Positions 13,694-53,812 of a DNA stretch of 64,000 nt are shown here, in pieces. The DNA is from Adineta ricciae. Taxonomy: Eukaryota > Rotifera > Eurotatoria > Adinetida > Adinetidae. The stretch lies in the NCBI GenBank assembly GCA_905250025.1, contig CAJNOJ010000432.1, positions 9,082 through 73,081 of the forward strand, written 5' to 3'. Both the position numbers and the translations under genes were made by a program. Positions within the stretch are counted from its first letter, which is position 1, and each line of letters starts with the position of its first letter. The notes beneath the pieces are model-generated. The model searched no databases, was not told the origin of the DNA, and was given only the letters and a program-made list of their open reading frames with translations.

Positions 13694-16600
13694 TTATTGT
13701 GTTCGACGAAAACGCTGTTGAATCTGGTTTCGGTATTGTGTTATACTCTTTCGACATTCTGTTCTATAAAATTTTGACGGTAAAACAAAGATGAGAAATG
13801 TGATCACCGTAGGAATAAACGAGATGAAATATCCAATAAGAAATATCCACGAATCTTTAGACGAATTCATACATTTCGATACATATGAAAGTATCAAACG
13901 TGGCAAAGCGAGAAGACATAGAACAACAGGTGCAATTAGTAAATGTTGATGTTCACGAACTTGTTCGTGTAACACACGTTTATAAGTTTGATCTTCTCGA
14001 AAACGAAGTTTTTGTCGAGACTTTGTTATTATCAAAACAATCGATGAAGTGAAATTGATGAGAAATGGAGCGAAGAAATGAAACGTGTTCACAATTCGAT
14101 TATAAGTTTGTAAACTTGAAGAGTATTTGACAACGCACCAGATTCGTTTTGTGTCATCATCACTGTCGTTCTCTTCTTGCAGCAAACTTCGATGAAGTGG
14201 ATCATGAATGGATGTTAACACCATTAAAATCAACAGAAGAATCAGATGTTTTTTCGCTAAATCCTTACTTTTCTTCTTTACAAATCGAGCGCCTTGAATA
14301 GTCATCGTTGCTCTTTCCATTGAAACACATGCATTCAGCCATTGATCCATGTTAAGACAAAGTCGAAGGAGAAAGTCTATCGAATGACATTGAATTTGTA
14401 AAAAGATTCGATTGGAAGACGTGGAGATTTGTGTCGAAAGATAAACAAAATATTTCATTGCAAACAAAACTATCGTCAAGATTGTCGTTATCGACGAACC
14501 TAATAAATACACACCACAACCAACTTTCAGAACAGTCTTATTCTTAAATGTGATAAAAGAACCCACGGCATTGATTAACCCAACGAGTATAAAAAGAACT
14601 GTGAGTGAAAAGCTGATGTTCACAATTAATGTTTGTTGAAAAATATTCACGCCGGGGATGATATGATAAGCTAAAATCGCATCGAGTGATAGGCCGAATT
14701 CCTTTGTGCTAAACTGGCACAGACTTCCGTAGTAACACGATCGACAAACGCAAATCGACTGTTTTGGGCAATCGGGCGAATCCTGAAAACATTGCCCATC
14801 GTTCTCACAATGGTTTCGTCCGAAACAGTCGAATTTCATCTGATGATCAAAATTGAAACAATTCGCTAAGCGTTTGTTCTGATGATCATAGCAGAGACAA
14901 AGGTGAATATCATCGTGAAAACATTCGAGATTAGGTGATGCCTGACAAATCAAATGGTACGATTTCATTCGCTGAAGTACATGAAGACGAGCAAATGTTT
15001 CATTGGCTAATTCGTTAATTGATGGACAACGATCAGACGAACGAACTTGACGCGTAATTCCGATTGAACGATTGTAAATCGGTTGAATAACACTTAAATA
15101 ATATGTTCTATGTAATGTTTCGATAAAAGTTAAATGAAATGGGCCTGACCAGTAGAGTCGAAGGGAATTGCTTGCTTGAGTTATCGTTTGTAATTTGGTT
15201 GATCGTTGTGGTGAAGATTTTGGAATGTTCTTTTGGAATTCATCAAATGGAGTAATTCGCACAAAATGAATGAAAACTGAATGAGACAAATCAATATTTT
15301 TTTCAAAGATCAGTTTAATCCGAGTATCGATTAATCGACACTGACGTCCGCTAAAGCCTTTGGCACAAATACAAAAATACTTCTGATTGGTCAGTGTGAG
15401 ATCACTATGGGTTACACATATACCATTGTTTTCGCATGGAGATTCGTCACAGATTCGATTTCGAAGATAACATTCAGAACCAAAATAATTCTCTTGACAG
15501 ACACAAATCGATCGATTATAACTCGATACACCAACGCATAATGAATTCGACGAGCAAGTGCAATTATACGGAATATCACAAGACGCTCCCATCCATCCTC
15601 GGTGACATTGACAAAAACTGTGTTGTGTGTTAGCATACTTCATACATTTTCCATGGAGGCATTCCTTGTCCGAGCAAGTCTCACGTGAAGATTCGTCGGA
15701 TGGAATTTTCACAATGAATGCCAAGCGATGAACTGGTAAGAAGGAGAATTTGACAGGATAGATGAAACTCGTTCGATATGTAAGAGAGAACCTTTCATAG
15801 ACATCAATATGAACTGAATAACTCCGATTTGAACGTTTAGGTCGAGTTGAATAAAGTAAGTAAAAATTAAATTTAATCTTGCAATCTCGAATGGATAAAT
15901 AGGTAAATTGTTCATAGGAATGAACAGTCCGTTGACTTGAATCATCGATAAGCATAACTAGAATCGCGAATAGAGTTCGTCGCGACTGCGCTGGAACATG
16001 AAATCTCATTACTACACTGACACGTTGATTTTGGTATTGACATTGCTTTCCATAGTAAGTAGGAGGACAAAAACATGTCCTTGTGTAGAAGTTAGATGAT
16101 TGGTTCAACCAAACGCGTACATCAAGACCACGATGACAACGAGGAACACTCAAGAGTGGAAGTGGCTTCTTGTTGTTTAAAGTGATTTGATTAATAGGCT
16201 TCTTCTTTTCATTGATTTCATGATCAGATGATCGAGAAAATCCGGTTATTCGAAAATGTTTTATTTTTGCCTTTTGTCTACCTTTAATCGTATCACATAA
16301 GAACTTTTCAACATCAGTTCTCAATGGTTTGTACTTGTCATTGCAAATCCCAGTGTTCAACGGAAATGATCGATTTTTGTTGCAAAATCGTTCATCTTCT
16401 TTATCTGCACATAACTTCTTGCCATCACATAAAGCATAAGATTGGATACATGGTGGACGCTTTTTATGAATCACACAGTAAAATTCTGCATCTCTATACG
16501 AATAGGGAGATCGACATAACATTCGTTCATCAGTACCACCAAGGCAATCAATTTGACCATCATTGATTTGACGAAGTGGCAAACATATCAGCTGATATGT

Positions 16601-18448
16601 GTCTAACGTGACACACATTCGAGAATCCGAAGAGCAATTGAGTAATGGTGGTGTATTGTCACAATTCATTTCGTCTTTTCCGTCTAAACAATTCCATATT
16701 TGATCACATCGAGTGTACATATTATCACATTCCCATGGCTCGCATTGAGTTTCATCCGTTTGATTTTGACCGTCGATGGTAATTGGATATAACTCTTGGA
16801 AACCATCACACATCGTCTGAAAAGATATGGTTCGGCGAGTAAAGTTATCGAATAGATTTTCATCTTCGCATGACTGATTAACAAATCCACAATCGCATTT
16901 TCCATTCAATATTGCGGATCGAGTGATATATTTGTTGGTCATATGACATCTGTAATATTTATTTTGGAATTGCGTCAGTAGATGAGGATCGATATGCTCA
17001 ATTATATTTTCATCGTCCTTGTAAGGACAATCAAATACAGCGTCGAGTAAACGATGAAATGGGATGTATTTTGATGAATTTGAACATTGATAGACGTTAG
17101 ATTGATTATATTGATCGATTGGAAAGTTAACTATCGGTTGAAATAGTTTAACTTGTTGAAAGGTCATTTCCATAAAAGTACTAAATCGGAAAACAGGAGA
17201 TAAATCATCAAGCAGGACTATTTGCGTCCACCTAGCAGCTTTAAAGCACGTTGTATCGTTCAATAAAGAATCTAGTGCAAAACTATGAGAAAAATATTTG
17301 TTCGAACATAAATATGGCACTGATGGAACTAAAGAAGTAGTCAACTCATTTTTCTTAAAAGCCGTATAAACATGACCAAAAAAAATGGGAATATTGGGAA
17401 CATATAATGTAGCTGGGCACTCTTTTCTGATGATAGGTATACATTCTTCATTGATAATCGTGATAGTGATCTTGGGATACCGTGGAGTTGAAAAAGCAAA
17501 ATAGCATTTAAAAGCTGTCCAACATTCGTCTGACACTGAACGGTCCTTGCCTGAAAACATCGATTCCATGGTTAAGCGTTCATATTTTGAAATACAAGAG
17601 CTGCTAATAAACTTATCGTAACACACGATATCATCAATTCCAAAAGCTGGCTCGACTACCTTTGGCAGCCGAGAATCAATAGTTCTTTTAAAATTTTCAT
17701 CGGATGTGTCAATACAATCAAGATACAGATTACCGTCGCGAACAAATTCACGCGGTATACATAGTCCATTCACACATTGGTACTCATCCTGTTCACATTC
17801 GTTCAATTCAAGTTGCCAACAATGGTCTTCATCATAATTTCCGTCAATACAATCAACTTTACCATCACAAATCTCAGTCCAATCTAAACATGCTGGCGAA
17901 TAACCACGACGGCATGTCAGATGAATGTAACAAGTCTTTGTAATTGATTGATGATAATAGGATTTATAATAATTATGAACAATTTCGTATAAAGAGGAAT
18001 AATTATCATGGTAGTAGTACAATTCATATTGACACATTGGTCCAAATCTTGGTAACGTGCAATTGTAGAAGCTTTGTTTTTCTAAGGAGGAATCGTTCGT
18101 TTCTAAATACATTTGGTATTGTTCAACAATGTCTAGTGGTGCTGACCAAATATATAAATTTTCACTTGTGATGTTCTTTTTTGCAAGATCAGCAAATGAG
18201 AGTGACGGTATATCATGTTCAATGTGAAACTGTCTTGATGATTCGCTCATGCAATACGATGAGATCTGTCGAGTTATACTTGCATCTTGTAAATTCGAAG
18301 GAAGTCGCAGACAGTTGTATCTTATTCCTATATCATCATTATATTCACTTTCACTTACTTCATCCGTTGTAAAATAGAGATTTATCTGCGGCGCTGCAAT
18401 GATGTAGTGAACGAAAATCAGATAGAAAAAAGATTTCTTATCAAACAT
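13694..18448 (-). CDS. LDLa/EGF/7TM chimeric receptor, copy 1 (full length)
   Basis: One uninterrupted frame of 1584 residues from the ATG at 18448; a TTG nine codons upstream is also in frame. Order: signal peptide (residues 4-19); LDL-receptor class A modules, recognisable by CDG-x-x-x-C-x-D-x-x-DE, at about 190-260, 560-620 and 640-720; an EGF module near 785; a beta-rich linker; EGF modules at about 950-1060 with CVCQENYFGSEC and CICAKGFSGRQC; another near 1230; then seven hydrophobic spans from about 1270 to 1560 resembling a rhodopsin-class receptor. MERA after span 3 stands where DRY is usual. It is expected at the cell surface as an adhesion-like receptor; the ligand is unknown. A second version, truncated by a gap, is at 25444-28171. 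Confidence 0.85.
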   Translation of the reverse strand: MFDKKSFFYLIFVHYIIAAPQINLYFTTDEVSESEYNDDIGIRYNCLRLPSNLQDASITRQISSYCMSESSRQFHIEHDIPSLSFADLAKKNITSENLYIWSAPLDIVEQYQMYLETNDSSLEKQSFYNCTLPRFGPMCQYELYYYHDNYSSLYEIVHNYYKSYYHQSITKTCYIHLTCRRGYSPACLDWTEICDGKVDCIDGNYDEDHCWQLELNECEQDEYQCVNGLCIPREFVRDGNLYLDCIDTSDENFKRTIDSRLPKVVEPAFGIDDIVCYDKFISSSCISKYERLTMESMFSGKDRSVSDECWTAFKCYFAFSTPRYPKITITIINEECIPIIRKECPATLYVPNIPIFFGHVYTAFKKNELTTSLVPSVPYLCSNKYFSHSFALDSLLNDTTCFKAARWTQIVLLDDLSPVFRFSTFMEMTFQQVKLFQPIVNFPIDQYNQSNVYQCSNSSKYIPFHRLLDAVFDCPYKDDENIIEHIDPHLLTQFQNKYYRCHMTNKYITRSAILNGKCDCGFVNQSCEDENLFDNFTRRTISFQTMCDGFQELYPITIDGQNQTDETQCEPWECDNMYTRCDQIWNCLDGKDEMNCDNTPPLLNCSSDSRMCVTLDTYQLICLPLRQINDGQIDCLGGTDERMLCRSPYSYRDAEFYCVIHKKRPPCIQSYALCDGKKLCADKEDERFCNKNRSFPLNTGICNDKYKPLRTDVEKFLCDTIKGRQKAKIKHFRITGFSRSSDHEINEKKKPINQITLNNKKPLPLLSVPRCHRGLDVRVWLNQSSNFYTRTCFCPPTYYGKQCQYQNQRVSVVMRFHVPAQSRRTLFAILVMLIDDSSQRTVHSYEQFTYLSIRDCKIKFNFYLLYSTRPKRSNRSYSVHIDVYERFSLTYRTSFIYPVKFSFLPVHRLAFIVKIPSDESSRETCSDKECLHGKCMKYANTQHSFCQCHRGWMGASCDIPYNCTCSSNSLCVGVSSYNRSICVCQENYFGSECYLRNRICDESPCENNGICVTHSDLTLTNQKYFCICAKGFSGRQCRLIDTRIKLIFEKNIDLSHSVFIHFVRITPFDEFQKNIPKSSPQRSTKLQTITQASNSLRLYWSGPFHLTFIETLHRTYYLSVIQPIYNRSIGITRQVRSSDRCPSINELANETFARLHVLQRMKSYHLICQASPNLECFHDDIHLCLCYDHQNKRLANCFNFDHQMKFDCFGRNHCENDGQCFQDSPDCPKQSICVCRSCYYGSLCQFSTKEFGLSLDAILAYHIIPGVNIFQQTLIVNISFSLTVLFILVGLINAVGSFITFKNKTVLKVGCGVYLLGSSITTILTIVLFAMKYFVYLSTQISTSSNRIFLQIQCHSIDFLLRLCLNMDQWLNACVSMERATMTIQGARFVKKKSKDLAKKHLILLLILMVLTSIHDPLHRSLLQEENDSDDDTKRIWCVVKYSSSLQTYNRIVNTFHFFAPFLINFTSSIVLIITKSRQKLRFREDQTYKRVLHEQVREHQHLLIAPVVLCLLALPRLILSYVSKCMNSSKDSWIFLIGYFISFIPTVITFLIFVLPSKFYRTECRKSITQYRNQIQQRFRRTQ

Positions 18449-19100
18449 GCTCTTCGCGCAAACTGTAATGAACAAAGTGTATTGATAATAACAGCTTTGA
18501 GAACTTTAGTTGACGTCAACCAGATAAAAAGAATTTGTTCCGTTTTGAACGAAGAAGTAAAATCGGACGATTGAAATTAAAGTGAATGCTTTTTTACCAT
18601 TAAGTTGTAAGCGCAGTTCAAAGCAAGAAACATCTGCCATACCAAATGTCTCCTAGTTTTACTCTTGAAAAATAATGCATCCTGTCAGTGTTGTTTTGAG
18701 CACAGTTTTTCGTCCCTGCATCTATATTCGAACAGAAATCGAATGATAGATGCGACGGACTCCGACTAACGATGGACAAAATGAGAATAAAGCCTGCTAT
18801 TTTAGGTCGTTCTTTTCTGACTCACCGAATGGTATTACAAGCCATTTGAGATTTCAATCCTTATAATTTAAAAACGGTATTTTCTGGCTTACGAGAAAAA
18901 TAAATACGACATCTGCGATTTGTATTGATGATTACAAATACTGCAGTCATTTGACTTCATCTGTTTTCTTTCTCACGTAAGACCACGTGTAAAAAAGCGT
19001 TAGAAAGAAAGAATATATATATAAAATATACGCACGTTAGTAAGTATTGCGAAAAAAAAAATCGAGTGGTGAAAAGTATCGTGTTTTTTCCTCGCAGATA
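18449..19100. promoter_or_regulatory. Divergent intergenic region of receptor and P-loop genes, copy 1
   Basis: About 650 bp between head-to-head genes, so both promoters must lie here. A CCACGTG E-box-like word is near 18983 and a TATATATATA-like run near 19012-19025. A pyrimidine-rich acceptor (CCTCGCAG) sits 3 bp before the ATG at 19101, suggesting an intron in the 5' leader. The corresponding region in the second copy, 28172-28880, has an extra segment of about 58 bp near 28322-28380. Confidence 0.45.
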
Positions 19101-20522
19101 ATGAGTCAAAATACAGACGTGACAGTTTTCAATGGAAATGCCAGTGAAATTTGTAAATTAATTCTGATTGGATTAGAAGGAGTCGGCAAGACAACATTAC
19201 TTAATGAAAGTTGTGGGGTGCATTTTGATACAAGTGATGGACGTGCTGGTTGTCTAATCAAAGACAATCAAAAGGGTTCATTCTTCGTCGATGAATTTTC
19301 TCGTCATTATGAATTAAATGATATGTTAGGAATTAACTACAAAAATCCCGGTGAATGGCAGAGAGCACTTCACGGACGGTCAGAAGTACATGGTGTGATT
19401 TTTCTGATCAGTGCGAGTAATCCTCGTGATAGTGCACTCGGTGAACTACCTCGAATTTATGAATATTGCACAAATTTGACAATTCCCGTACTTTTTGTTT
19501 ATCGCGATGGAATTCTTCGCTTTGCTCCGCATGTTCGAATCTATGCCGAAACGAGAGAAATTATGATCGACGACGAGGAAACCGGTAGTAAGATAATCAA
19601 AAATGAATTTGTTCGTTATCGAAATTTGGATGAAGTGAAAAAGACGATCGCAGCAACTTTTGAAAATGCTCGTGTGTTACATCAATTACTCGATCCAATC
19701 ACCATTTGTGGACAAGTTAAAGTTCTACGCGATAAGAACGAAGAACTAGAAATGAAAATCAATGAACTGAACCAAGTGCACGAAGTGGAATTAAACAAAA
19801 AACAAGAAATCATTCAACAACAAAGTAAACGATACGATGAACAAATTGAGAAGCTCAATCGGTCGCTCGAAAACGCTGCATTGAATAACAAAACTTTACA
19901 AGAAAGACTCGATACCATCGTGCAGAAGAATCAGGAATCAATCTTTAAGCTTAGTAACGATATTCAATCAGCGATTAATGAAAATCAACGTCTTCGAATT
20001 TCTCTCGAAGAACTGACGAAAGAAAATCAAAATCTTGAAGAAAAACATTCGAGATTACTCACAGAGAAGAAACAACTCGATTTCGATCTTCACGATATTA
20101 CTCGCGATCGAGAACAGATTCAAAAAGTTAAAGCAAAACTCGAACATGACATCGCCGAAGTCGAACAGAGCCAACAAATTCTACTCAAAGAAAAACGTTC
20201 ATTAGAAGCTCGGAAAGGAGATCTCGAAAATCACATCTTTGCAACGCGTTCGCGTCTCGAGGAGCAACTGAATCTTATTGTCAGTGTTATTCACACAACA
20301 CCAGGTGGAAACAAACGAATCTATCCGAAAAAATACTATACAAATGGAAAGTGGATGTGGCTACCAGGACGAGCATACGACGTTATCGAAAAATTCGACG
20401 AACTTGGTGAAAGTACCAAAGATGTGATCTGTTCGCTCAGGAAAGACTTGCACAAAATCGATGCGAGACACGCTGTCGTCGAAGAACAAGATGACAGTGA
20501 CGACGAAGAAACGCAGTCTTAG
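19101..20522 (+). CDS. P-loop GTPase-like protein with long coiled coil, copy 1
   Basis: 473 residues from the ATG at 19101; the frame extends upstream only through non-ATG codons and a likely leader-intron acceptor. Residues 20-32 hold a Walker A motif (LILIGLEGVGKTT), followed by a TSDGRAGC switch-like region, an LNDMLG where a DxxG motif would be expected, and VIFLISAS then VLFVYRDG, where an NKxD motif is usual but missing. Residues about 215-410 are a heptad-rich coiled coil (many E, K, Q, L), and the tail is acidic. The layout recalls AIG1/GIMAP-type GTPases, but the base-specificity motif is not canonical. The copy at 28881-30302 differs by about a dozen residues. Confidence 0.75.
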   Translation: MSQNTDVTVFNGNASEICKLILIGLEGVGKTTLLNESCGVHFDTSDGRAGCLIKDNQKGSFFVDEFSRHYELNDMLGINYKNPGEWQRALHGRSEVHGVIFLISASNPRDSALGELPRIYEYCTNLTIPVLFVYRDGILRFAPHVRIYAETREIMIDDEETGSKIIKNEFVRYRNLDEVKKTIAATFENARVLHQLLDPITICGQVKVLRDKNEELEMKINELNQVHEVELNKKQEIIQQQSKRYDEQIEKLNRSLENAALNNKTLQERLDTIVQKNQESIFKLSNDIQSAINENQRLRISLEELTKENQNLEEKHSRLLTEKKQLDFDLHDITRDREQIQKVKAKLEHDIAEVEQSQQILLKEKRSLEARKGDLENHIFATRSRLEEQLNLIVSVIHTTPGGNKRIYPKKYYTNGKWMWLPGRAYDVIEKFDELGESTKDVICSLRKDLHKIDARHAVVEEQDDSDDEETQS

Positions 20523-21895: not shown

Positions 21896-22148
21896 AAAAT
21901 CACATAAACTCTACTCATTTTGTGTTCTTATGGTTCTAATTCAATTACACTTTAACTTCTTGCATTCAGATGAATAGAATACTTATAAAAATGTCTTTAT
22001 CATTTATTCTTTTTTCCTCTCGTACCGTAAGTAAGATGCTTTCGCGTTGTCAGTCCTTTGTATTGATGATAAGGCGAAATTGTTCTGGTGTGTTCTCATC
22101 AGTATTTTGTTCCTTTCTTGAGGGTGAGTATACAGCGCTCTTACAAAA

Positions 22149-23069
22149 ATGGATGTCGAATCGCGAAAAGTGATCGTGATCGCCGGTGGTACTGGTGGCA
22201 TTGGTCGACATATTGTCGATGGGATTGTGGCTGCAAAGAAATACACGGTGAAAGTCTTCTCTCGACAAGATCCTTCATCATTAGTTGATATGACAGTCAA
22301 AGGAGTGATAGTGGTTAAAGTCGATTATTCTGATCGTGATTTACTCGTAAAGGAATTACAAGGTGTTCACACAGTCATTGTTACGCTTATCTCATTAGAT
22401 GATTCGTGTGTTCAAGCGCAGATCAATTTGCTCAATGCAGCACTGAAAGCGAAAGTCAAACGAATAGCTCCATCAGAGTGGACTGGTCAACATGATGAAA
22501 ATACAGTGATAGAACTGTATCGACGACTTAAAGTACCTGTCCGAGAGAAAATTAAAGCAGCTGGCATAGAATATACGGTGTTTATGATCGGTCTTTTAAT
22601 GGACTATTTTGCATCACCTCAAACAGCAAGTAAATCGATAGGTTCCCTCGTTATTGGTGTAGACTTTAGCAAATGTGTAGCAAGTATTACCGGCTCAGGT
22701 GATGAACCGTTTTGTCTTACTCGAGCTGATGATGTTGGTAAATTCGTTGCTGCTGCTCTCGAGCTCGACAAATGGAATGAAAATTCAGGCATTGTCGGAA
22801 GTCGGACAACTTGGAATGAAATCATCAAGCTGGGTGAGAAGATCAGAGGAACCAAGTTCCATGTGCAATACACCTGTGCTGACGAAGCAGCCAGATTGAT
22901 CGATACCATGACCGATAACGTTCTTGAAAAATTGATTCAGCAAGTCTATTTAGGCATCGTACGAGGTGAATTTGATTTTGAAGCCACGTTAAACAACATA
23001 TGTCCAGAAATTAAACCAACCACTATCGAACAATTTCTTATGGAATCATGGGCTGATTATAAAGGATAA
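22149..23069 (+). CDS. NmrA/isoflavone-reductase-like NAD(P)-binding protein, copy 1
   Basis: 306 residues from the ATG at 22149. An N-terminal Rossmann motif GGTGGIG (residues 13-19) follows a beta strand (VIVIA), and the FSRQDP segment fits the cofactor-selecting second strand. RIAPSEWTG near residue 110 is typical of the NmrA-like family of atypical short-chain dehydrogenases. Length matches the family (about 300). Members act as reductases on aromatic or lignan-like compounds or as redox sensors; the substrate here is unknown. It is co-directional with and 253 bp downstream of the BAHD gene, and that pair is preserved in the second copy. Similarity to fungal and plant proteins suggests horizontal origin (inference). 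Confidence 0.8.
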   Translation: MDVESRKVIVIAGGTGGIGRHIVDGIVAAKKYTVKVFSRQDPSSLVDMTVKGVIVVKVDYSDRDLLVKELQGVHTVIVTLISLDDSCVQAQINLLNAALKAKVKRIAPSEWTGQHDENTVIELYRRLKVPVREKIKAAGIEYTVFMIGLLMDYFASPQTASKSIGSLVIGVDFSKCVASITGSGDEPFCLTRADDVGKFVAAALELDKWNENSGIVGSRTTWNEIIKLGEKIRGTKFHVQYTCADEAARLIDTMTDNVLEKLIQQVYLGIVRGEFDFEATLNNICPEIKPTTIEQFLMESWADYKG

Positions 23070-25442: not shown

Positions 25443-25443
25443 N
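25443..25443. other. Single N: scaffold join inside two genes
   Basis: Left of the N is the middle of an F-box exon; right of it is the middle of the receptor gene, at the point homologous to 15718. No natural sequence links them, so this is an assembly join. Confidence 0.9.
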
Positions 25444-28171: not shown

Positions 28172-28880
28172 GCTCTTCGCGCAAACTGTGATGAACAAAG
28201 TGTATTGATAATGACAGCTTTGAGAATTTCATTTGACGTCAGCCAGATAAAAAGAATTTGTTCCGTTTCGAGCGAGGAAGTCAAATCGGATGATTGAAGT
28301 CAAAGTAAATGCTTTTTTGGGCCATTAATTTTAGAAAAAATGTCACTAATGGTTAACATCTCTAGCCAACGCCTTTCTCTTTGGTAAGCGCATTTCAAAG
28401 CAGGAAACACCTAGCATACCAAATGTCTCCTAGTTTTACTCTTGAAAAATAATGCATCCTGCCAGTGTTGGTTTGAGCATAGTTTTGCCTTCCTCTATCT
28501 ATATTCGAACAAAACTCGAATGATAGATGCGACGGACACCAACTAACAATGGAAAAAATGAGAATAAAGCCCTGATATTTTAGTTCGTTCTTTTTCTAAC
28601 TCACCGAATGGTATTACAAGTCATTTGAGATTTCAATCCTTATAATTTAAAAACGGTATTTCTTTGCTTACGAGAAAAATAAATACGACATCTGCGATTT
28701 GTATTGATGATGATAAATACTGCAGTCATTTGACTTCATCTGTTTTCTTTCTCACGTAAAACCACGTGTAAAAAAAGCGTCAGAAAGAAAGAATGTATAT
28801 ATATACAAAACATATACACGTTAGTGAGTATTGCGAAAAAATTGAATGGTGAAAAGTATCGTGTTTTTTTCTCGCAGATA
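28172..28880. promoter_or_regulatory. Divergent intergenic region, copy 2
   Basis: Counterpart of 18449-19100. Compared with it, this version has an additional segment around 28322-28380 and several small indels. It retains the CCACGTG word, an alternating TATA run and the leader-intron acceptor (CTCGCAG) 3 bp before the ATG at 28881. Confidence 0.45.
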
Positions 28881-30302
28881 ATGAGTCAAAATACAGACGT
28901 GACAATTTTCAATGGAAATGCCAGTGAAATTTGTAAACTAATTCTGATTGGATTGGAAGGAGTCGGCAAGACAACATTACTTAATGAAAGTTGTGGGGTA
29001 CATTTTGATACAAGTGATGGACGTGCTGGTTGTCTGATCAAAGAAAACCAAAAAGGTTCATTCTTCGTCGACGGATTCTCTCGTCATTATGAATTAAACG
29101 ATATGTTAGGAATCAATTACAAAAATCCCGGCGAATGGCAGAGAGCACTTCACGGACGGTCAGAAGTGCATGGTGTGATTTTTCTGATCAGTGCGAGTAA
29201 TCCTCGTGATAGTGCACTTGGTGAACTACCTCGAATTTATGAATATTGCACAAATTTGACAATTCCCGTGCTTTTTATTTATCGCGATGGAATTCTTCGT
29301 TTTGCTCCGCATGTCCGAATCTATGCCGAAACGAGAGAAATTACGATCGACGATGAGGAAACCGGTAGTAAAATAATCAAGAATGAATTTGTTCGTTATC
29401 GAAATTTGGATGAAGTGAAAAAGACGATCGCGACAACTTTTGAAAATGCTCGTGTGTTACATCAATTACTCGATCCAATTACCATTTGCGGACAAGTTAA
29501 AGTTCTACGAGATAAGAACGAAGAACTAGAAATGAAAATCAATGAACTGAACCAAATGCATGAGGTGGAATTAAACAAAAAACAAGAAATCATTCAACAA
29601 CAAAGTAAACGATACGATGAACAAATTGAAAAACTCAATCGGTCGCTCGAAAACGCTGCATTGAATAACAAAACTTTACAAGAAAGACTTGATACCATCG
29701 TGCAGAAGAATCAGGAATCAATCTTTAAGCTTAGTAACGATATTCAATCAGCAATTAATGAAAATCAACGTCTTCGAATTTCTCTCGAAGAACTAACGAA
29801 AGAAAATCAAAATCTTGAAGAAAAACATTCGAGATTACTCACAGAGAAGAAACAACTCGATTTCGATCTTCACGATGTTACTCGTGATCGAGAACAGATT
29901 CAAAAAGTTAAAGCAAAACTCGAACATGACATCGCCGAAGTCGAACAGAGCCAACAAATTCTACTCAAAGAAAAACGTTCATTAGAAGCTCGAAAAGGAG
30001 ATCTCGAAAATCATATCTCTGCAACGCGTTCGCGTCTCGAAGAGCAACTGAATTTGATTGTCAGTGTTATTCACACAACACCAGGTGGAAACAAACGAAT
30101 TTATCCGAAAAAATACTATACAAATGGAAAATGGATGTGGCTGCCAGGACGAGCCTACGACGTTATCGAAAAATTCGACGAACTTGGTGAAAGTACCAAA
30201 GATGTGATCTGTTCGCTTAGGAAAGACTTGCATAAAATCGATGCAAGACACGCTGTCGTCGAAGAACAAGATGACAGTGACGACGAAGAAACGCAATCTT
30301 AG
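28881..30302 (+). CDS. P-loop GTPase-like protein with long coiled coil, copy 2
   Basis: 473 residues, colinear with 19101-20522 without indels. The Walker A motif and coiled coil are unchanged; substitutions are mostly conservative (for example V to I at residue 9, K to E in the GCLIKEN segment, I to V late in the coiled coil). The preserved frame despite many silent changes suggests purifying selection on both copies. Confidence 0.75.
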   Translation: MSQNTDVTIFNGNASEICKLILIGLEGVGKTTLLNESCGVHFDTSDGRAGCLIKENQKGSFFVDGFSRHYELNDMLGINYKNPGEWQRALHGRSEVHGVIFLISASNPRDSALGELPRIYEYCTNLTIPVLFIYRDGILRFAPHVRIYAETREITIDDEETGSKIIKNEFVRYRNLDEVKKTIATTFENARVLHQLLDPITICGQVKVLRDKNEELEMKINELNQMHEVELNKKQEIIQQQSKRYDEQIEKLNRSLENAALNNKTLQERLDTIVQKNQESIFKLSNDIQSAINENQRLRISLEELTKENQNLEEKHSRLLTEKKQLDFDLHDVTRDREQIQKVKAKLEHDIAEVEQSQQILLKEKRSLEARKGDLENHISATRSRLEEQLNLIVSVIHTTPGGNKRIYPKKYYTNGKWMWLPGRAYDVIEKFDELGESTKDVICSLRKDLHKIDARHAVVEEQDDSDDEETQS

Positions 30303-31707: not shown

Positions 31708-31963
31708 AAAATCAGATAAACTCTACTCATTTTGTGTTCTTATGGTTCTAATTCAATTACACTTTGACTTCTTACATTCAGATGAATAGAATACTTATAA
31801 AAAAAGTCTTTATCATTTATTCTTTTTTTCCTCTCGTATACCGTAAGTAAGATGCTTTCGCGTTGTCAGTTCTTTGTATTGATGATAAGGCGAAATTATG
31901 CTGGTGTGTTCTCATCAGTATTTTTTCCTTTCTTGAGGGTGAGTATACAGCGCTCTTACAAAT

Positions 31964-32884
31964 ATGGATGTCGAATCACGAAAAGTGATCGTGATCGCCG
32001 GTGGTACTGGTGGCATTGGTCGACATATTGTCGATGGGATTGTGGCTGCAAAGAAATACACGGTGAAAGTCTTCTCTCGACAAGATCCTTCATCATTAGT
32101 TGATATGACAGTCAAAGGAGTGATAGTGGTTAAAGTCGATTATGCTGATCGTGATTTACTCGTAAAGGAGTTACAAGGTGTTCACACAGTCATTGTTACG
32201 CTTATTTCATTAGATGATTCGTGTGTTCAAGCGCAGATCAATTTGCTCAATGCAGCACTGGAAGCGAAAGTCAAACGAATAGCCCCGTCAGAGTGGACTG
32301 GTCACCATGATGAAAATACAGTGATAGAACTGTATCGACGACTTAAAGTACCTGTTCGAGAGAAAATTAAAGCAGCTGGCATAGAATACACTGTGTTTAT
32401 GATCGGTCTTTTGATGGACTATTTTGCATCACCTCAAACAGCAAGTAAATCGATAGGTTCCCTCGTTATTGGTGTAGACTTTAACAAATGTGTAGCAAGT
32501 ATTACCAGCTCAGGTGATGAACCGTTTTGCCTTACTCGAGCTGATGATGTTGGTAAATTCGTTGCTGCTGCTCTCGAGCTCGACAAATGGAATGAAAACT
32601 CAGGCATTGTCGGAAGTCGAACAACTTGGAATGAAATCATCAAGCTGGGTGAGAAGATCAGAGGAACCAAGTTCCATGTGCAATACACCTCCGCTGACGA
32701 AGCAGCCAGATTGATCGATACCATGACCGATAACGTTCTTGAAAAACTGATTCATCAAGTCTATTTAGGAATCGTACGAGGCGAATTTGATTTTGAAGCC
32801 ACGTTAAACAACATATGTCCAGAAATCAAACCAACCACTATCGAACAATTTCTTATGGAATCATGGACTGATTATCAAGGATAA
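31964..32884 (+). CDS. NmrA/isoflavone-reductase-like NAD(P)-binding protein, copy 2
   Basis: 306 residues, colinear with 22149-23069. The GGTGGIG cofactor motif is unchanged, and about ten conservative substitutions are seen (for example S to A in the DY-A-DRD segment, Q to H in WTGHHDEN). Both copies look functional. A poly-A signal (AATAAA) occurs about 45 bp after the stop, as in copy 1. Confidence 0.8.
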   Translation: MDVESRKVIVIAGGTGGIGRHIVDGIVAAKKYTVKVFSRQDPSSLVDMTVKGVIVVKVDYADRDLLVKELQGVHTVIVTLISLDDSCVQAQINLLNAALEAKVKRIAPSEWTGHHDENTVIELYRRLKVPVREKIKAAGIEYTVFMIGLLMDYFASPQTASKSIGSLVIGVDFNKCVASITSSGDEPFCLTRADDVGKFVAAALELDKWNENSGIVGSRTTWNEIIKLGEKIRGTKFHVQYTSADEAARLIDTMTDNVLEKLIHQVYLGIVRGEFDFEATLNNICPEIKPTTIEQFLMESWTDYQG

Positions 32885-37649: not shown

Positions 37650-38818
37650 ATGTTACTCGCTGACTCTCTCATTCGATTTTTACAGAGATTAAGTTTAATT
37701 CTTTTGTTAACAACTATCAGTATTCCTCTATGGTATGGCTCAACTAATTCTCAATATATTTTCATACGTGTTGTACATTCCCTACTGACAGTAAAACATT
37801 CTTTCATATCTGATGCAACTCGACCAACATTGAGTACGGAATTTCGTGCGTTTGAAAATTTAATTCGTATTCGGCCAATTCCGAAATATGATCCATTAGC
37901 CGATGCTCTTACTTTACTGAAAGATATGCGTACGAAATCTGTGATATCTGATCTCATTCCCAAGCCATCGCAATGTCGAATTGCCGAGGAAATCTTTGAA
38001 CACAATGGACATTCTGTCGAAACTTACTGGATTGACAATTCGATTCGAAAGTCTCGAAAACATTCCGATAAATTATTTCTTTTCTTACACGGCGGCGGAT
38101 ATTTAATCGGAAATATTCATAGTAAATTCCGTTTTTATTGAAAATATGTAACTCACTTGACATTTATTTAGGCTACAGTGGTTTCGAATGCGAATTATCC
38201 CGAATATTCAATGGGACAATTCTCCATGTGGAATATCGTCTTAGTCCTGAACACCTTGTTCCTGCTGCTGTCAAGGATACAGTATCAGTTTATCAAAGTT
38301 TGCTTCGTCAGAATATTTTACCATCGCAGATTATTTTGATTGGTGATTCTGCTGGTGGTGGTCTCGCACTTCTCACCGTTCAGACTCTAATTGCACAAAA
38401 TGAGCAATTACCATGTGGTGTCATCGTTTTATCACCATGGACAGATTTGTCTGCGTCCGGTGACAGTTTTCATCGTAATCGTGAAGCTGATTTGTTATTT
38501 ACTCATGATGATGTTCGCTGGGTTACCGCGCAAGTCTTGAATCTCAATCAATCTGCGAATGATCCTCACTACAGTCCGTTGTTTGGTTCGTTCAAAGGAT
38601 TTCCACCGATGTATATCAATGTAGGTACAAGTGAATTGCTGTATGATGATTCAAAGCGAGTTTTTCTCAAGGCAAAGGAAGCATATGTGAATGTAACATT
38701 TGAAGAAGGTTTGCATATGATGCATATCTATCCAATATTTTTTTCATTTTTTCCCGAAGCACAAATAACATTGAACAATATTAATCGTTGGATACAAAGA
38801 CTTTCTCAAGGAAATTAA
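37650..38818 (+). CDS. Alpha/beta hydrolase, HSL/bacterial-esterase type
   Basis: Exons 37650-38121 and 38172-38818 (50-nt phase-1 intron, GTAAAT...TTTAG), 372 residues. A hydrophobic N-terminal segment (LIRFLQRLSLILLLTTI) suggests a membrane anchor. The oxyanion-hole motif HGGGY is near residue 148. The nucleophile elbow GDSAGGG is near 215, with Ser as nucleophile. DPHYSPL and the strand LLYDDS supply the acidic region, and GLHMMHIYP supplies the His. This is the hormone-sensitive-lipase-like (GDXG) branch, which cleaves short or medium acyl esters. No partner in the neighbourhood reveals the substrate. It is closer in motifs to bacterial and fungal members than to vertebrate HSL (impression only). 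Confidence 0.8.
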
Positions 38819-39316: not shown

Positions 39317-42300
39317 ATGGCATCAAATACTCCATCGATTCAGTTGAGTGTTCGACTTGCTCCTCTTCCTGCATCGATTAATTCTGTAAAACTCGCTCAG
39401 GAACTTCATTTACCACGCCCATTACATATTAGTATTCAGAAAGATGGTTCTTGTGCATGGATCAATGGTTTTGTCTATCAAGAAGATGCAGATGAATTCG
39501 TCCGCCAATGGTCAGGTGCTACAATTCAAGGACAAATAATCGAATGTACTGTCTCGTCACGCCGAAATGAGCACACCGGTCCTTCTCAGACAGTTCGTAA
39601 ACCATTGGAGGCAGACGACGGATCGTTACCCAATCAACAGCACGGTTTTGAACGTTCCACACAGCCTAAACCTCGTTTTCCTGCTGAAAAAGATCAAGTT
39701 TCGAACATTGGAACTAATGTCGAAGCGAAAAATTCTCCTGATAGAAATCCATATATATTCAGAACCCAACGACCAAAGACAACAACAGGTAACTTGATTT
39801 ATTCTACCATAACCATCGCTTTGAAATCGGATATTTTGTTTTAGCCATACCCTCCACAACAAAATTATTGAAGGAGAAAGATGATGAACAAGATAGACGA
39901 CCCTTATGCCATTGGGCAAACAAAGGTGAATGTCGATATAATAGTGACACATGTAAATATCGTCATGAGCAATGTACGAATTATAAATCATGCGAAAACC
40001 GGGTATGCAAGTTAGGCCACTCAAAAGAACGAACTGCAAGAGTCGTGCAAAGCTCACATGAAAGAAATTTACTGCGTGATAGAAGAGATTCGTGTTCATC
40101 AACAAGCTCGAACACATCAATACAATCTACGAATACAAGAACAAATATGTGTCGTTATGAAATGAAATGCTTTAACATTGATTGCCGCTTTGAGCATCCC
40201 GATGGCTGGAATCCGTGTGTCGATGGAGAAAACTGTGAAGATTACGACTGTACGGCGAGTCATTCTTTCAAACGAAAAACAAAATGTCTTAGTGGTGGCA
40301 ATTGCAAGAATGCAGATTGTAAATTCTTACATCCAAAAGCTCGCGCGGAGCTGTGTCGTTTTCGTGCAAAATGCAAATTGTGGACTTGTCAGAAATTACA
40401 TCCAAATACTCGAGCTCGACGATGTGCCAATAAAGAAAAATGTACAAATCTCGGTTGTCTATGTTTACATCCGTTGGAGCGTAGTAAACTTCTTTGTTTA
40501 CTAGGAGCCGAATGTCGCGAAATTTCGTGCAAACTGACTCACCCGAATGAACGATCATCGATATGTGATCAACCCGATGCATGTCCAAACTTCAACTGTA
40601 CTCGCCTTCATCAACCAGAATGGAATCCGTGCGAAGACGGTAATGATTGTAAGGATTCACAATGTTTGAAAATTCATCCATCGGAACGTAAATTAAATCC
40701 GCAACAGACAAAAAGCAGAAATTTAAAAACTTTGGAACAAAGATTTAATGATCGTAAGAAGGCTTCGTTAACAATATTCTCTCATCGAGAGACATTTTGT
40801 AAACGTCTCGAACAGGAACATGTTTTGATTGTTACTGCAGAAACTGGTAGCGGTAAAAGTACACAATTACCTCAGTATGCTGTTGAACATTTCGGTTCAC
40901 TTGTTGTTTGCACTCAACCGCGTGCTGTTGCTGCTCTTTCATTGGCTCGTCGTGTTGCTGAAGAATTTGATGGACAATCAGTTGGTGAATCGGTTGGATA
41001 CCAAATCGGTCATGGCAATCGAGTGGCTGGATCAAAAATTATGTTCATGACAGATGCAGCATTGATTCGAGAAAGTCAACGTGATCCTGATTTGAAGCAT
41101 ATTCGCGTCTTAATCATAGACGAAGCGCATGAACGTTCGTTAAATACCGATATTGTTATTGGCATCTCGAAACTCCTGCTAGCAAAACGTCCCGATGATT
41201 TTTATGTTGTGATTGCGTCAGCAACGATTGATCCAAGTCGTTTTCTACAATTTTTCGGTCGTTCTACGAATACACCTCTGAAAGTCGAGGGCCGAGTATT
41301 TAAAGTAACCGATGCTGAAAAACCACCACCATCCGATTGCTCCGATCAGAAGTTCATCGTGTCGCATGTCGTTCCGTCTGTTCTTGAACTCTATCCACAA
41401 CACGAAGGACATACACTCGTTTTCCTCCCTGGCCAAAGTGAAATCGAACGAGCAATGAAAATCTTTAAATCTAAACTTCCCGACGATTGTGTTACACTTC
41501 CACTGTACGGTTCACAATCGCCAGAAGACCAAGAAAAAGTGATCAAATTTAACGAACTAGATAAACGAATGGTGGTTTTCTGTACGAATGTTGCTGAAAC
41601 TTCATTGACCATTGCAAATGTTCGATTGGTTATCGACTCTGGATTAGCAAAAGAAGCGCGTTACGATGCTAAACGTCGTTTGACTGTGATTGAAACTGTA
41701 CGTATTTCACGATCATCTGCTGATCAACGCAAAGGTCGAGCTGGACGAACTGCGCCAGGTCATTGCGTTCGTCTGTATGGAAATTCGGAATTAACACGAG
41801 CAAATATCGAACCAGAAATTCTCCGATCATCACTCGACCTTGTTCTTCTACAATTAGTACGCTTAAATCTTGATCCGAAAACTTTCCCATTCATGGATGC
41901 ACCACCCTTGGATGTCTTAAACAATTCTCTTGCTCTTCTTGCACAACTTCAATGCATGGACGATCAGCAAACGATCACGAAGAGAGGCGAATTGTTTACT
42001 GAGCTTTCCCTTGATCCTCGCCTAAGTTCGTTTATCGTCGATGTCTATTCCCAGTATAAAAGTCTATTGGGTGTCGTCGTCGCGATCGTGGCAATTCTAT
42101 CAGCACCGGGTACGATTTTTTTCATGGGCGGAGACAAAGAAGCAGCCAAAGCACGAGTGGCACTTCAAGCACAAAATCAGAAAAGCGATCTGATTCATTT
42201 ATATTCAGTTTACAATGATTGGGAAAATGCCGGCGGTAGACCAAACAAAGGAAAATGCTCAAAATGTGATAAAATAAGCCGATATTGTATATGTCGAATC

Positions 42301-45300
42301 AAGTATTGTAATGAAAACGGTTTAAATAATAAAATTTTACAACATATTTCAACATCATGCGGCTCGATTATCAAACAGCTGAAAAACGTGCGCTGGCTTC
42401 AACCACGTGACGAAATGTGCACAGATATGGTTAAAACTCTCGGTTATCATCTCGCAAAGCTTTTCCCCGAACAGTGTGGGTATCTGCTCGTTCCGCAATT
42501 GCCGAGCGAAGGCGTTCGATTAATCTCCACTGATATTCGTGCGAAGATCACAAATACGAGTGTGTTTATGCAAAAACTTAACAAAGATTCCGATCGAGAA
42601 GTTTACCAGCATTTTGTAGCAATGACAATTACGCAATTACCATCCGGAAACCATATCATCGAACGACTTCATCCGATATCTCGATCGGATGTTGTTGTAC
42701 AATCAACAATACAGGATTTATGCACAATTGAAAATTGTGGACCAGAGTTTGAAAAGCTTTTTCGTCAGAAATTGAACTCGTTCCAATCAGAATCATGGGC
42801 AAAATGGCTTGTCTACCAATATGATCGATCGCAATGTCGGTTTACGATTTCAGGTACTGAAACAATCAAATCAGAATTCATACCGATGGTTCGACATTGT
42901 CAAAATGAAGTTCAAAAGAAACTTTACGACCATTATGATCTATTGCCTTGCGGTCCAATCAGAGCAAATTTTCAAAGCGGCTTACTTTGCACACACATTA
43001 ATAAAACCACCGAGGCCTTGAAAATGAACCTTCAAAACGTTTCAAGTCAAACGCCCAATGAATTGAAAGACTGGCTGATGAAGATGGCTGGAATCGAATG
43101 GAATGAAGTTAAAGAGTATAAATTTTATACAACAAAAGGTGAAACAGAAAGCAAACAAATTTCTCTCGTTTTCAAAAACGAAGATGTATATCGACGTGCG
43201 ATGAATAAAATTCCTCGTTATCACTTAACAGAACAAGAAAATCAATTTCGCGATAATGAAAAAGAAACGTGGGGTAGAGAACTGACTATTCAAGTTCCAT
43301 CAAATATCACAACGGAAGATATTATTCAACAATATGGCGCTGAACATATTATGAAATGCATTTCATTAAATGAGAAAAAGAGAAAAGAGTCATCGCTGAA
43401 ATTAGATAATTTACCTCCAACAGCCGATGAAAATTCTCTCCGTCAGTGTCTTCAAACATCTAACGGACCAAGTCCTAAGGATATCTACGTTGCACGTACA
43501 AAAAATGATGCAAGTGCATGGGCCAAGCTAACGTTCCATGATGCAGAACAATGTAATCGAGCTGCGACGATTTATACACTACAGTTATGTCAAACAATGT
43601 TTCCGATTACTGTTACGAGCAACAACAGTCCAAAACAAAAATACATTCAAACTAAAGTAACAAAAGCGGATGACTCTGATGCAACGGAGAATCAGAAACA
43701 TTTCTATCGTGTTGTTACGGTGAGCCGTGAAGTAGCGTTGAAAATATACTCTTCGCCACCAACAGATTGGAATGTCGATGGATCAGCAACGATAACTATT
43801 CTTCGCACGGATCTACATCCAAATTTCCAACAAACACTCAACGCCATTTGTGACAAATTCAATGTTCAAGTTAAATGTAGAGATATTCCAAAAACGTTTG
43901 GTCAACGTTGTATTTTCAATCACGGAAGTCCTCAAAAGACAAGTTTAGCAGCATCTATGCTAGCCCAAAGCTTTGCACCGATTAATATCAAAGTAAAAAC
44001 CGAACGACAAAGACAACTCTTTCGTGAATTAGAAGAAATTGGTCAAATACAACAGTGGGCGGTGGAATTAAAATTACAGATAAATCCAAACAAATATCTT
44101 ACAAATATTGAAATTCGAGGTCCACAAACGTCTCAAGGACAATTGATGCGGCGTATTGCTGATTATTCCGATAGCTTTGACAAACGTTTTCATGAGCACG
44201 AACTTAGTCCGGTAGTCGCAACTTTTTTCGGTCAACAAAAAGCAGCATCAGTTCGATTGCGACAAATAGCTTCAAAATGGGCATCGAATTCTTGTCTAGT
44301 TTCATTTAATCCTAGAACTACGACAATAACAATTGTTGGTAAAACAGATGTTTCTTTAATAGATTTGAATACATGTGAAAATGAAGTTCTTCAACTCTTG
44401 GATGAGATTATTGCTAGTACAGATAATGTAGAAAGTGAAGAAGACGAAGATGAAGACGAGGAAGAGAATGATAACAGGAATACTTTGGGAAAAGAACGTC
44501 GATGTGTATTTTGTAAACAACAATCGTCAACTTCAACGAGTTTATTTCGAATTTGCGGACATGCTTACTGTCGATGTGCTGCGCAATATCTGGCCGCGAC
44601 TCATCAATTTCCTCTTAAGTGTAGAGATTGTCAAACCAACATTCACATTTACGATATCAAAAATATCTTTGATAACAACTCACAATTATTAACATATCTA
44701 TTAAAATGTTCAATTCAAGAGTATTTAACAAACAATGCTCAACAAGATGATCGCGTGTTCTGTCCGACCGTTGAATGTGAAGGTTTGATTAAACTGAGCA
44801 ATGGTTATCAAACTTGTTTAACATGCGGACAAAACATTTGTCCGAAATGTCAAGTTATTGATGATGAACTGCATATGGGCCGCACATGTGCTCAACTTGT
44901 TGAAGAAAAGAAACGGCAAGAATTCTTACCACAACTCTTTCTTGCGGCAAGAAAATTTGTTCTAGATAACTGGCCACTTGATAACACAGTACAGCCCATT
45001 GGTCGTATTGATGAAAATCCTTATTTAGAAAAGCAATACAAATCATTAATACGATTTTACAAAGCAAATCAAACTTTGGGTCATTCGTTTCCACCGGATT
45101 TAGCAAAAGGCTTTTTCGCTTATCATGGTTGTCCATTTCAATCGATTAATGCAATTTGTCAAACGGGCTTTGATCCTCGCCGTCGTTCAGGTCAAGCTTA
45201 TGGTCGTGGTGAATACTTTGGAGTTACGGCTCTTATCTCTCACAGTTATTCGCAGAAAGGTGGAAGTCAAGGTGGATTCAGTCAAATGATCATTGCATTC

Positions 45301-45972
45301 ATTCTTCAATGTACTCAGGTAACAAAATCAGAAGGCTTCTGCTATGTCGTTGACAATCCAGTTGATTGGACATATGCATTTAACATTCCCGTTTTGGTGG
45401 TTACTTATGGGTCCAATGCTGCGAGTCAGTTATCACCCTTTCCTCGTGATATTTCACAATATGTTGATAACGAGCCTTGTTGGAATGCACCTTTTCGATG
45501 GTATTGGCATCAAGATAACGGGAATTTCGAACCATATAATGACACGATCAATGAAATACTCGAGAATTTCTATGAAGCGTGGAAGTTCAATCGTGGTTTA
45601 TCGGAAGTTGATACACCACCAGTGACTCGTTATGTTGATGACGCTCCTCAAGAGTATAAAATTGATTTTAAGAAAAATCGACAAGTGAACATGAAAACAA
45701 CATATACGCGACTTATCGACCGGCGGCCTTTGGAAAAGCCAGCAGCGAATTTAAATTGGTTTTACTGTAACGAGCATGGAGCTTGGACACGTTATGAAAT
45801 GCTCGTTCAAAATCAAATCGAACAAGCATTTCAATCGTATCGAGCTGGTCGAGGACCATCAACTGTTAATGTTCAACCTCCTGGTCGTCCAGAAACATAC
45901 CAAATTAACTTTTTGAAAGGTCAACAAATAAACACACAAAGTAACACTTTTAAAAACATCAAACGAGAATAA
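39317..45972 (+). CDS. CCCH-finger / DEAH helicase / RING-IBR / PARP / WWE fusion protein
   Basis: Exons 39317-39788 and 39845-45972 (56-nt phase-1 intron), 2199 residues. Order: RRM-like region (about 8-85); ten CCCH fingers (about 175-450), nine of them with CX5CX4CX3H spacing as in Nab2/ZC3H14; a DEAH helicase with motif I GSGKST (about 490), DEAH (about 583), SAT (about 616), TNVAETSLTI and QRKGRAGRT (about 786), then HA2-like domains; RNA-binding-like linkers; an acidic run; RING1 (CVFC, about 1711, with one ligand spaced C-x-C); a complete IBR (about 1797-1840); a PARP-type domain with AYHGC (about 1916) and GRGEYFG (about 1945); and two WWE domains (about 2037 and 2126). RING2 with its catalytic Cys is absent. 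The PARP lacks the Glu of H-Y-E enzymes, so mono-ADP-ribosylation is expected. It probably acts on RNA or in antiviral defence (inference). Confidence 0.85.
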
Positions 45973-46112: not shown

Positions 46113-46184
46113 TGCATCTGCTGGGAGTCGAACCCAAATCTCTTGACTGGCAATCAAGTGCTCTGACCATTGAACTACAGATAC
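46113..46184 (-). tRNA. tRNA-Gly (GCC)
   Basis: A 72-nt cloverleaf on the minus strand. The acceptor GTATCTG/CAGATGC pairs with one G-T wobble. Anticodon stem CTTGA/TCAAG surrounds loop TTGCCAG, giving anticodon GCC. The T arm TGGG TTCGACT CCCA is good and the A and B boxes are present. No intron. Confidence 0.85.
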
Positions 46185-53811: not shown

Positions 53812-53812
53812 N
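53812..53812. other. Single N: scaffold join between two ART paralogues
   Basis: Left of the N is the 5' part of an ART-TPR gene; immediately right is the TPR portion of a different, degenerate ART gene on the same strand. As at the other two N bases, this is probably an assembly join placing paralogues side by side. Confidence 0.85.

Follow-up and report, generated by a model that had tools for sequence, protein, structure and literature searches.

The C432 gene lies at positions 39317–45972 (+) of the window, a stretch of 64,000 nucleotides (C432, 9082–73081) from the Adineta ricciae assembly of 130.5 Mb and 1033 contigs, and is predicted to encode a single chain in which an RRM fold, ten CCCH zinc fingers, a DEAH helicase, a weak RRM, a RING1-like module, an IBR module, a PARP domain and two WWE domains follow one another from the N to the C terminus. 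To judge from the sequence, the combination looks new: known domain families are newly combined, with PARP standing where the RING2 of a RING–IBR–RING (RBR) ubiquitin ligase would be expected. As a whole, we tentatively read the protein as an RNA-binding DEAH helicase joined to a mono-ADP-ribosyltransferase and to a surviving module that docks ubiquitin or its conjugating enzyme (E2), a reading to which we give somewhat less than an even chance. Antiviral defence brings together RNA sensing, ubiquitin and ADP-ribose, which mammals split among separate proteins, such as ZAP with TRIM25 (PMC8102003; published work is cited throughout for the portions of text available to us) and PARP9 with DTX3L. 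The C432 protein unites all three in a single chain, its ubiquitin-transfer part seemingly exchanged for an ADP-ribosylating part.

The features of the gene are given below; C147 and similar labels denote contigs of the same genome that carry relatives.

39317..39788, +: exon 1, residues 1–157 and the first base of a split codon; ATG at 39317; N-terminus homologous to C147a
39789..39844, +: predicted intron, 56 nt, GT-AG (GTAACT...TTTTAG)
39845..45972, +: exon 2, through the stop codon
39317..39574, +: predicted N-terminal RRM-type fold, residues 1–86, from a single-sequence model and PDB fold matches
39907..40677, +: ten CCCH zinc fingers, residues 179–435; Pfam zf-CCCH_tandem 4.2e-7 (6 stretches) and pattern count
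40762..42219, +: Prp43/DHX15/HrpA-like DEAH helicase, core with ratchet region
42256..42297, +: small cysteine cluster CSKCDKISRYCICR, kept in relatives; zinc-ribbon-like, of uncertain identity
43405..43563, +: second RRM, weak; Pfam RRM_1 0.065, PDB profile 0.0054
44503..44631, +: RING1-like zinc module, C1711–C1753; 8 invariant ligands, weak RING matches
44716..44889, +: IBR zinc module; Pfam IBR 1.7e-6 on the segment
45025..45417 (limits estimated), +: PARP-type ADP-ribosyltransferase domain; Pfam PARP 4.2e-6, PARP12 structure 1.9e-8
45124–45126, +: PARP catalytic His1918, invariant in 6 aligned sequences and a seventh
45214–45216, +: PARP catalytic Tyr1948, invariant in 6 aligned sequences and a seventh
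45496..45723, +: first WWE domain (Pfam)
45757..45966, +: second WWE domain (Pfam)

The RING1-like and IBR modules and the expected RING2

Pfam was run on pieces of the gene, which together span all of it except 44437–44466 and the split codon and for which filters remove most matches with E above 0.1, and separately on exon 2 as one query. In the scan of whole exon 2, PARP appears at 1e-4, below the cut-off, and IBR and the tandem CCCH family are not among the matches at E ≤ 1; we give more weight to the segment scans. An earlier note on this DNA had proposed a RING1 and an IBR, with a profile search as the check on these and on PARP. The segment scans bear out IBR and PARP, and the RING1-like assignment draws on metal ligands and weak structural matches. 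All eight Cys/His ligands of RING1 are invariant in five aligned sequences and intact in the other two family sequences, and a RING1 profile finds weak matches to RING structures in the PDB (E 0.03–0.1). The eight metal ligands of the IBR are likewise invariant in the five and intact in the two, and its profile matches RING finger protein 31 in the PDB (0.0017); the Pfam score of the C159 IBR is only 0.012.

After the last IBR ligand, C1839, the chain runs through a linker with no conserved cysteine and no Cys/His-rich segment into PARP, and the protein then ends with WWE or, in C159, with PARP itself. By alignment and Pfam segments, RING2 was not found in any of the seven family sequences that are readable from IBR into PARP. 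RBR ligases are defined by the succession RING–IBR–RING (PMC2904391), and ubiquitin transfer in them goes via a RING2 cysteine (PMC5758712). That the protein works as an RBR ligase in the proposed ubiquitin signalling is thus doubtful, because the RING2 with its catalytic cysteine is absent.

The Pfam IBR model also matches the RING2 of ordinary RBR genes and served as a control, applied at the 57 places in the genome where an IBR match reaches model position 64 or 65. Family membership was assigned by contig name, which leaves 51 non-family places; the 57 do not include C159. On the same strand, a second, shorter IBR match follows no more than 700 bases downstream at 26 of the 51, as opposed to none of the 6 family places. 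The family alignment is the stronger evidence for the apparent loss of RING2. A single-sequence model of the RING1–IBR–PARP–WWE portion (501 residues) has a predicted local distance difference test (pLDDT) score of 34.8, too low for use.

PARP and WWE domains

The PARP-type domain claimed earlier is confirmed by its Pfam segment match (26.8 bits for a cut-off of 26.7), and among solved structures, ranked by match score, the nearest are PARP12 (1.9e-8), then PARP10, PARP15, ZAP (1e-4) and PARP14. The third catalytic position is probably Val2010; relatives that reach that far carry Val or Ile, and the PDB alignments end short of the position. In the surveyed clade-3E PARPs the catalytic Glu is replaced by Ile, or by Val in ZAP (PMC2964712), so a mono- rather than a poly-transferase would be expected.

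The same residue also invites a ZAP-like scaffold reading, in which PARP and RING–IBR would be inert adaptor folds in a protein that binds and unwinds RNA and recruits decay factors: ZAP combines CCCH, WWE and a PARP fold, the third position here is probably the Val of ZAP, and RING2 is missing. The PARP of ZAP, however, has lost the catalytic His, whereas both His and Tyr are invariant in the C432 family, and PARP dN (nonsynonymous divergence) is far below dS (synonymous divergence) between C432 and C147. We regard such a scaffold as fairly unlikely.

The two WWE domains, also foreseen in the earlier note, match Pfam at 5.5e-24 in two stretches, and as a tandem they are nearest DTX1 (3.4e-5). 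Both lie downstream of PARP, with the CCCH fingers upstream.

In the reading that we prefer, the RRM and CCCH fingers would capture RNA, and the DEAH motor would move along the captured RNA or remodel it. The RING1–IBR would descend from a helicase-type RBR ligase that lost its catalytic RING2, and this remnant may dock E2~ubiquitin or ubiquitin with no thioester transfer onto itself. PARP, in the place of RING2, would add a single ADP-ribose to nearby proteins, to RNA, or to the docked ubiquitin or E2, and the tandem WWE would read ADP-ribose and so keep the protein on its modified targets. We infer all of these activities, the order of events and a use against foreign or aberrant RNA from the domain anatomy; defence against viruses or transposons is plausible on the same basis. 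A more specific proposal, which we consider somewhat unlikely, is that, in this lineage of animals, an ADP-ribosyltransferase has replaced the RING2 of a helicase-type RBR ligase, such that, on sensing and unwinding of RNA, PARP would be presented with a docked E2~ubiquitin (or a substrate bound to RING1) and would ADP-ribosylate ubiquitin, E2 or RNA, and WWE would read the product, making the protein a single-chain, RNA-triggered effector of ubiquitin and ADP-ribose against viruses or transposons.

A helpful analogy for such a mechanism may be found in the Deltex RING ligases, which ubiquitylate ADP-ribose on proteins to give hybrid marks with no covalent E3 (ubiquitin ligase) intermediate (PMC7615817). 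Like Deltex ligases, the C432 protein has a zinc module, here RING1-like, and WWE in the same chain; the differences are its own ADP-ribosyltransferase (ART) domain and its helicase. The Deltex chemistry could also be taken literally, with RING1 acting as an ordinary RING ligase that, together with PARP and WWE, makes the hybrid ADP-ribose–ubiquitin mark that is made elsewhere by separate Deltex and PARP proteins. Such a ligase would fit the intact RING1 ligands and the DTX1-like tandem WWE, but no Deltex C-terminal domain was matched in the Pfam segments, and RBR RING1s are reported to differ from canonical RINGs in favouring an open E2~Ub (PMC5462532); we find it improbable.

The chain had been described as a merger of ZAP-like and DEAH12-like architectures. 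The domains named in that description are there, but the arrangement is not that of a simple merger, as the WWE domains come after PARP and resemble DTX1 most. Plant DEAH11 and DEAH12 are examples of the helicase (Plant I) RBR subfamily. With this subfamily the C432 protein shares great length and a DEAD/DEAH helicase joined to an IBR and, in its own case, to a RING1-like module (PMC2904391), but it lacks RING2 and has PARP and tandem WWE, and its CCCH array goes unmentioned in the available description of the subfamily. Helicase-type RBR proteins are found in both unikonts and bikonts, with frequent losses among animals (PMC2904391); ‘DEAH12’ is also in use as a clam gene name (PMC8765752). 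As with PARP12 and ZAP (PARP13, clade 3E), there are CCCH fingers, WWE and a PARP that is nearest PARP12 and probably has Val or Ile at the third position. WWE precedes PARP in those proteins and follows it in the C432 protein, which adds a DEAH helicase, RRM and RING–IBR and, as opposed to ZAP, keeps the catalytic His. Fungal UBCc-PARP proteins (clade 6A) similarly place PARP and a ubiquitin-pathway domain in a single chain, but the latter is an E2-like domain there and RING1–IBR here (PMC2964712).

The terms ‘helicase’ and ‘IBR’ do not occur in the available text of two PARP surveys (PMC2964712 and PMC4245714), the second of which names Adineta vaga once, for PARG. In the accessible part of PMC8102003, which traces where ZAP came from, neither IBR nor rotifers occur, and helicases come up once, as ZAP cofactors. 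The earlier note knew of no described protein with the whole set, and this agrees with searches of open-licence papers, where no description of the combination stands among the matches listed, judged by titles and the starts of abstracts. Unannotated rotifer members may already be present in public protein databases.

RNA-binding modules, gene model and family

The first 86 residues gave no Pfam match and no convincing match in a PDB sequence search. Their single-sequence model (mean pLDDT 66.7) has the order beta-alpha-beta-beta-alpha-beta, and among the fold matches listed the best are RRMs (E from 4.3e-4, query template-modelling score 0.53–0.67), with 36 of the 50 bearing RRM or RNA-binding domain titles. 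The RRM-like start read earlier by eye is thus recovered as a predicted fold, and the region is 43/84 identical to C147a. The ten CCCH fingers are also upheld: between residues 171 and 450 the pattern occurs as 10 non-overlapping fingers, where 200 shuffles of this stretch average 0.22, and a chance origin is rejected on this count.

All the DEAH helicase motifs are present and intact, as had been stated: GSGKS at 492, DEAH at 583, SATI at 616, TNVAETSLT at 738 and QRKGRAGR at 785, which we take to be motifs I, II, III, V and VI and which place the protein among the DEAH RNA helicases. The nearest matches are Prp43/DHX15, DHX8 and HrpA, and the Pfam segments give DEAD 6.1e-10, Helicase_C 1.1e-13 and HA2_C 0.012 (0.0081 in an overlapping piece). 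Beyond the helicase, at the cysteine cluster CSKCDKISRYCICR, only C159 and C427 show matches to zinc families, and these are weak. The second RRM is matched in C147b (RRM_1 0.031) and is not listed for three other relatives. Apart from this weak RRM, the middle region of about 750 residues (941–1690) gave nothing convincing in Pfam on four relatives or in the PDB by profile.

Once spliced, the gene reads as 2199 codons with a single terminal stop and no internal stop, as the earlier note had it. The frame of exon 1, read unspliced, hits a stop at 39844, and exon 2 sits in an open frame of 2059 codons from 39793 to 45972. Removal of the 56-nt intron is predicted from sequence; in the paralogue C147a the N-terminal domain and the remainder form a single intronless frame, which supports the joining of exons 1 and 2. 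The only Ns in the window are at 25443, 35380 and 53812, so there is no assembly join within the gene. With an intron predicted from sequence, adjacent genes might in principle have been read as one, but we reject such a fusion as extremely improbable, given the single N-free 2059-codon frame and the recurrence of the helicase-to-PARP link on C147 and C159, in stretches that contain no gap.

The C432 gene belongs to a family. Searched at the protein level, the genome yields two tandem pieces on C147, further relatives on C427, C159 and C312, and a truncated one on C55, with identities to the C432 protein that range from 364/485 in the C147a helicase down to about half in the PARP and RING–IBR of C159 and C312. 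Copy number is uncertain because single-N assembly joins interrupt several copies. Helicase, RING–IBR and PARP are linked without gaps in C432, in C147 14556–20272 (into part of PARP) and in C159 66764–71617, and in C427 and C312 only parts of the domain chain are supported. Single-N joins are rejected as the source of the architecture, as none occurs in the C432 gene or in the C159 stretch. WWE matches are found in C432, C147 and two C312 copies. The C55 copy, at a gap-free locus, resembles residues 260–1134 only and ends in the middle region. By the same pattern, the CCCH fingers number 10 in C432, 7 in C147a, 7 in C427a, 5 in C312, 5 in C55 and 3 in C159. Outside the genome, PARP profile searches confirmed 0 of 68 pattern stretches in viral contigs and 0 of 70 in prokaryotic genome contigs, and the RING–IBR profile confirmed 0 of 34 in viral contigs.

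In every region compared, C432 and the C147 copies differ by a dN of 0.17–0.39 and a dS above 1.2 (saturated); for WWE the partner was C147b alone, and the N-terminal RRM was left out. The recent pair C147a/b has dN/dS of 0.14–0.21 in four regions. As estimated from these substitution rates, the family is under purifying selection. A dN far below dS, and a helicase nearest Prp43/DHX15/HrpA, would also suit a role in cell maintenance and not in defence, be it mRNA turnover, ribosome or RNA quality control, or recovery from desiccation or radiation, and some Adineta vaga PARP genes respond, up or down, to radiation and spaceflight (PMC12220480). Tandem duplication, the varying number of fingers and the loss of WWE or the C-terminus in copies fit defence genes better, and we consider maintenance unlikely.

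Several observations weigh against the preferred reading of an RNA-binding helicase with a mono-ADP-ribosyltransferase and a docking module. The RING1 region gave no RING match in the Pfam segments at E ≤ 10. PARP could be inert, since its third catalytic position is probably Val or Ile, as in weak or inactive members. C159 and C427 gave no WWE match, so the family does not depend on WWE. An in-frame TAG falls within the RING–IBR and PARP stretch of C427, and two pairs of copies are less constrained, with dN/dS of 0.16 and 0.41 in C427a/b and of 0.21 to 0.68 in C312a/b, highest in WWE. Finally, 25 of the 51 control IBR places likewise have no second match, perhaps through introns or sub-threshold scores, and the IBR control is for this reason only suggestive.

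Other ADP-ribosylation genes and neighbours in the window

A second, different helicase–PARP family is encoded in the same genome, at L055:751–4353 (C700), L054 (C36), L056 (C455) and L057 (C209); C132 and C608 also carry helicase and PARP matches. In order, its parts are a DEAH-like helicase (with DEVH, and sharing about 28% identity with that of C432), a nucleotidyltransferase-like GGF(I/V)RDW...SDLD motif and PARP, with no notable RING–IBR similarity. In C700 a frame of 1201 codons takes in the helicase, the motif and the beginning of PARP (22.0 bits, below the cut-off), and more PARP pieces lie just downstream. Across the genome there are at least 125 PARP-domain, 57 WWE and 88 IBR matches, counted as exon pieces and not as genes, which suggests a large ADP-ribosylation repertoire. 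Given the second family and the many PARP-domain matches, the lineage may be rich in ADP-ribose-based RNA biology. Within the window, about 6 kb from the C432 gene, 52036–53826 (-) encodes an arginine-type ART domain (2.7e-5) followed by TPR repeats, with a single N at 53812.

Just upstream of the C432 gene, 37650–38818 (+) is an alpha/beta hydrolase gene (Abhydrolase_3 7.7e-39), in which a frame break, judged by eye, suggests a comparable short GT-AG intron near 38122–38171. A tRNA-Gly (GCC) lies at 46113–46184 (-), about 140 bases past the stop codon of the C432 gene, and two tRNA-His are found at 1594 and 4069. Two pairs of frames suggest a duplicated block: 19044–20522 and 28734–30302 (+) have similar weak GTPase/coiled-coil Pfam matches, below cut-offs, and 22128–23069 and 31943–32884 (+) are equal in length (313 aa), the first, which was the one scanned, being NmrA-like. 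A 1603-codon frame at 13694–18505 (-) includes repeats of the LDL-receptor class A and EGF types, and its match to the rhodopsin-type seven-helix family falls just short of the cut-off. Arrays of TGTGGG, the bdelloid telomere repeat, for which a reversed control is uninformative because reversal yields the repeat again in another phase, give 38 exact 24-base matches on 10 contigs of the genome.

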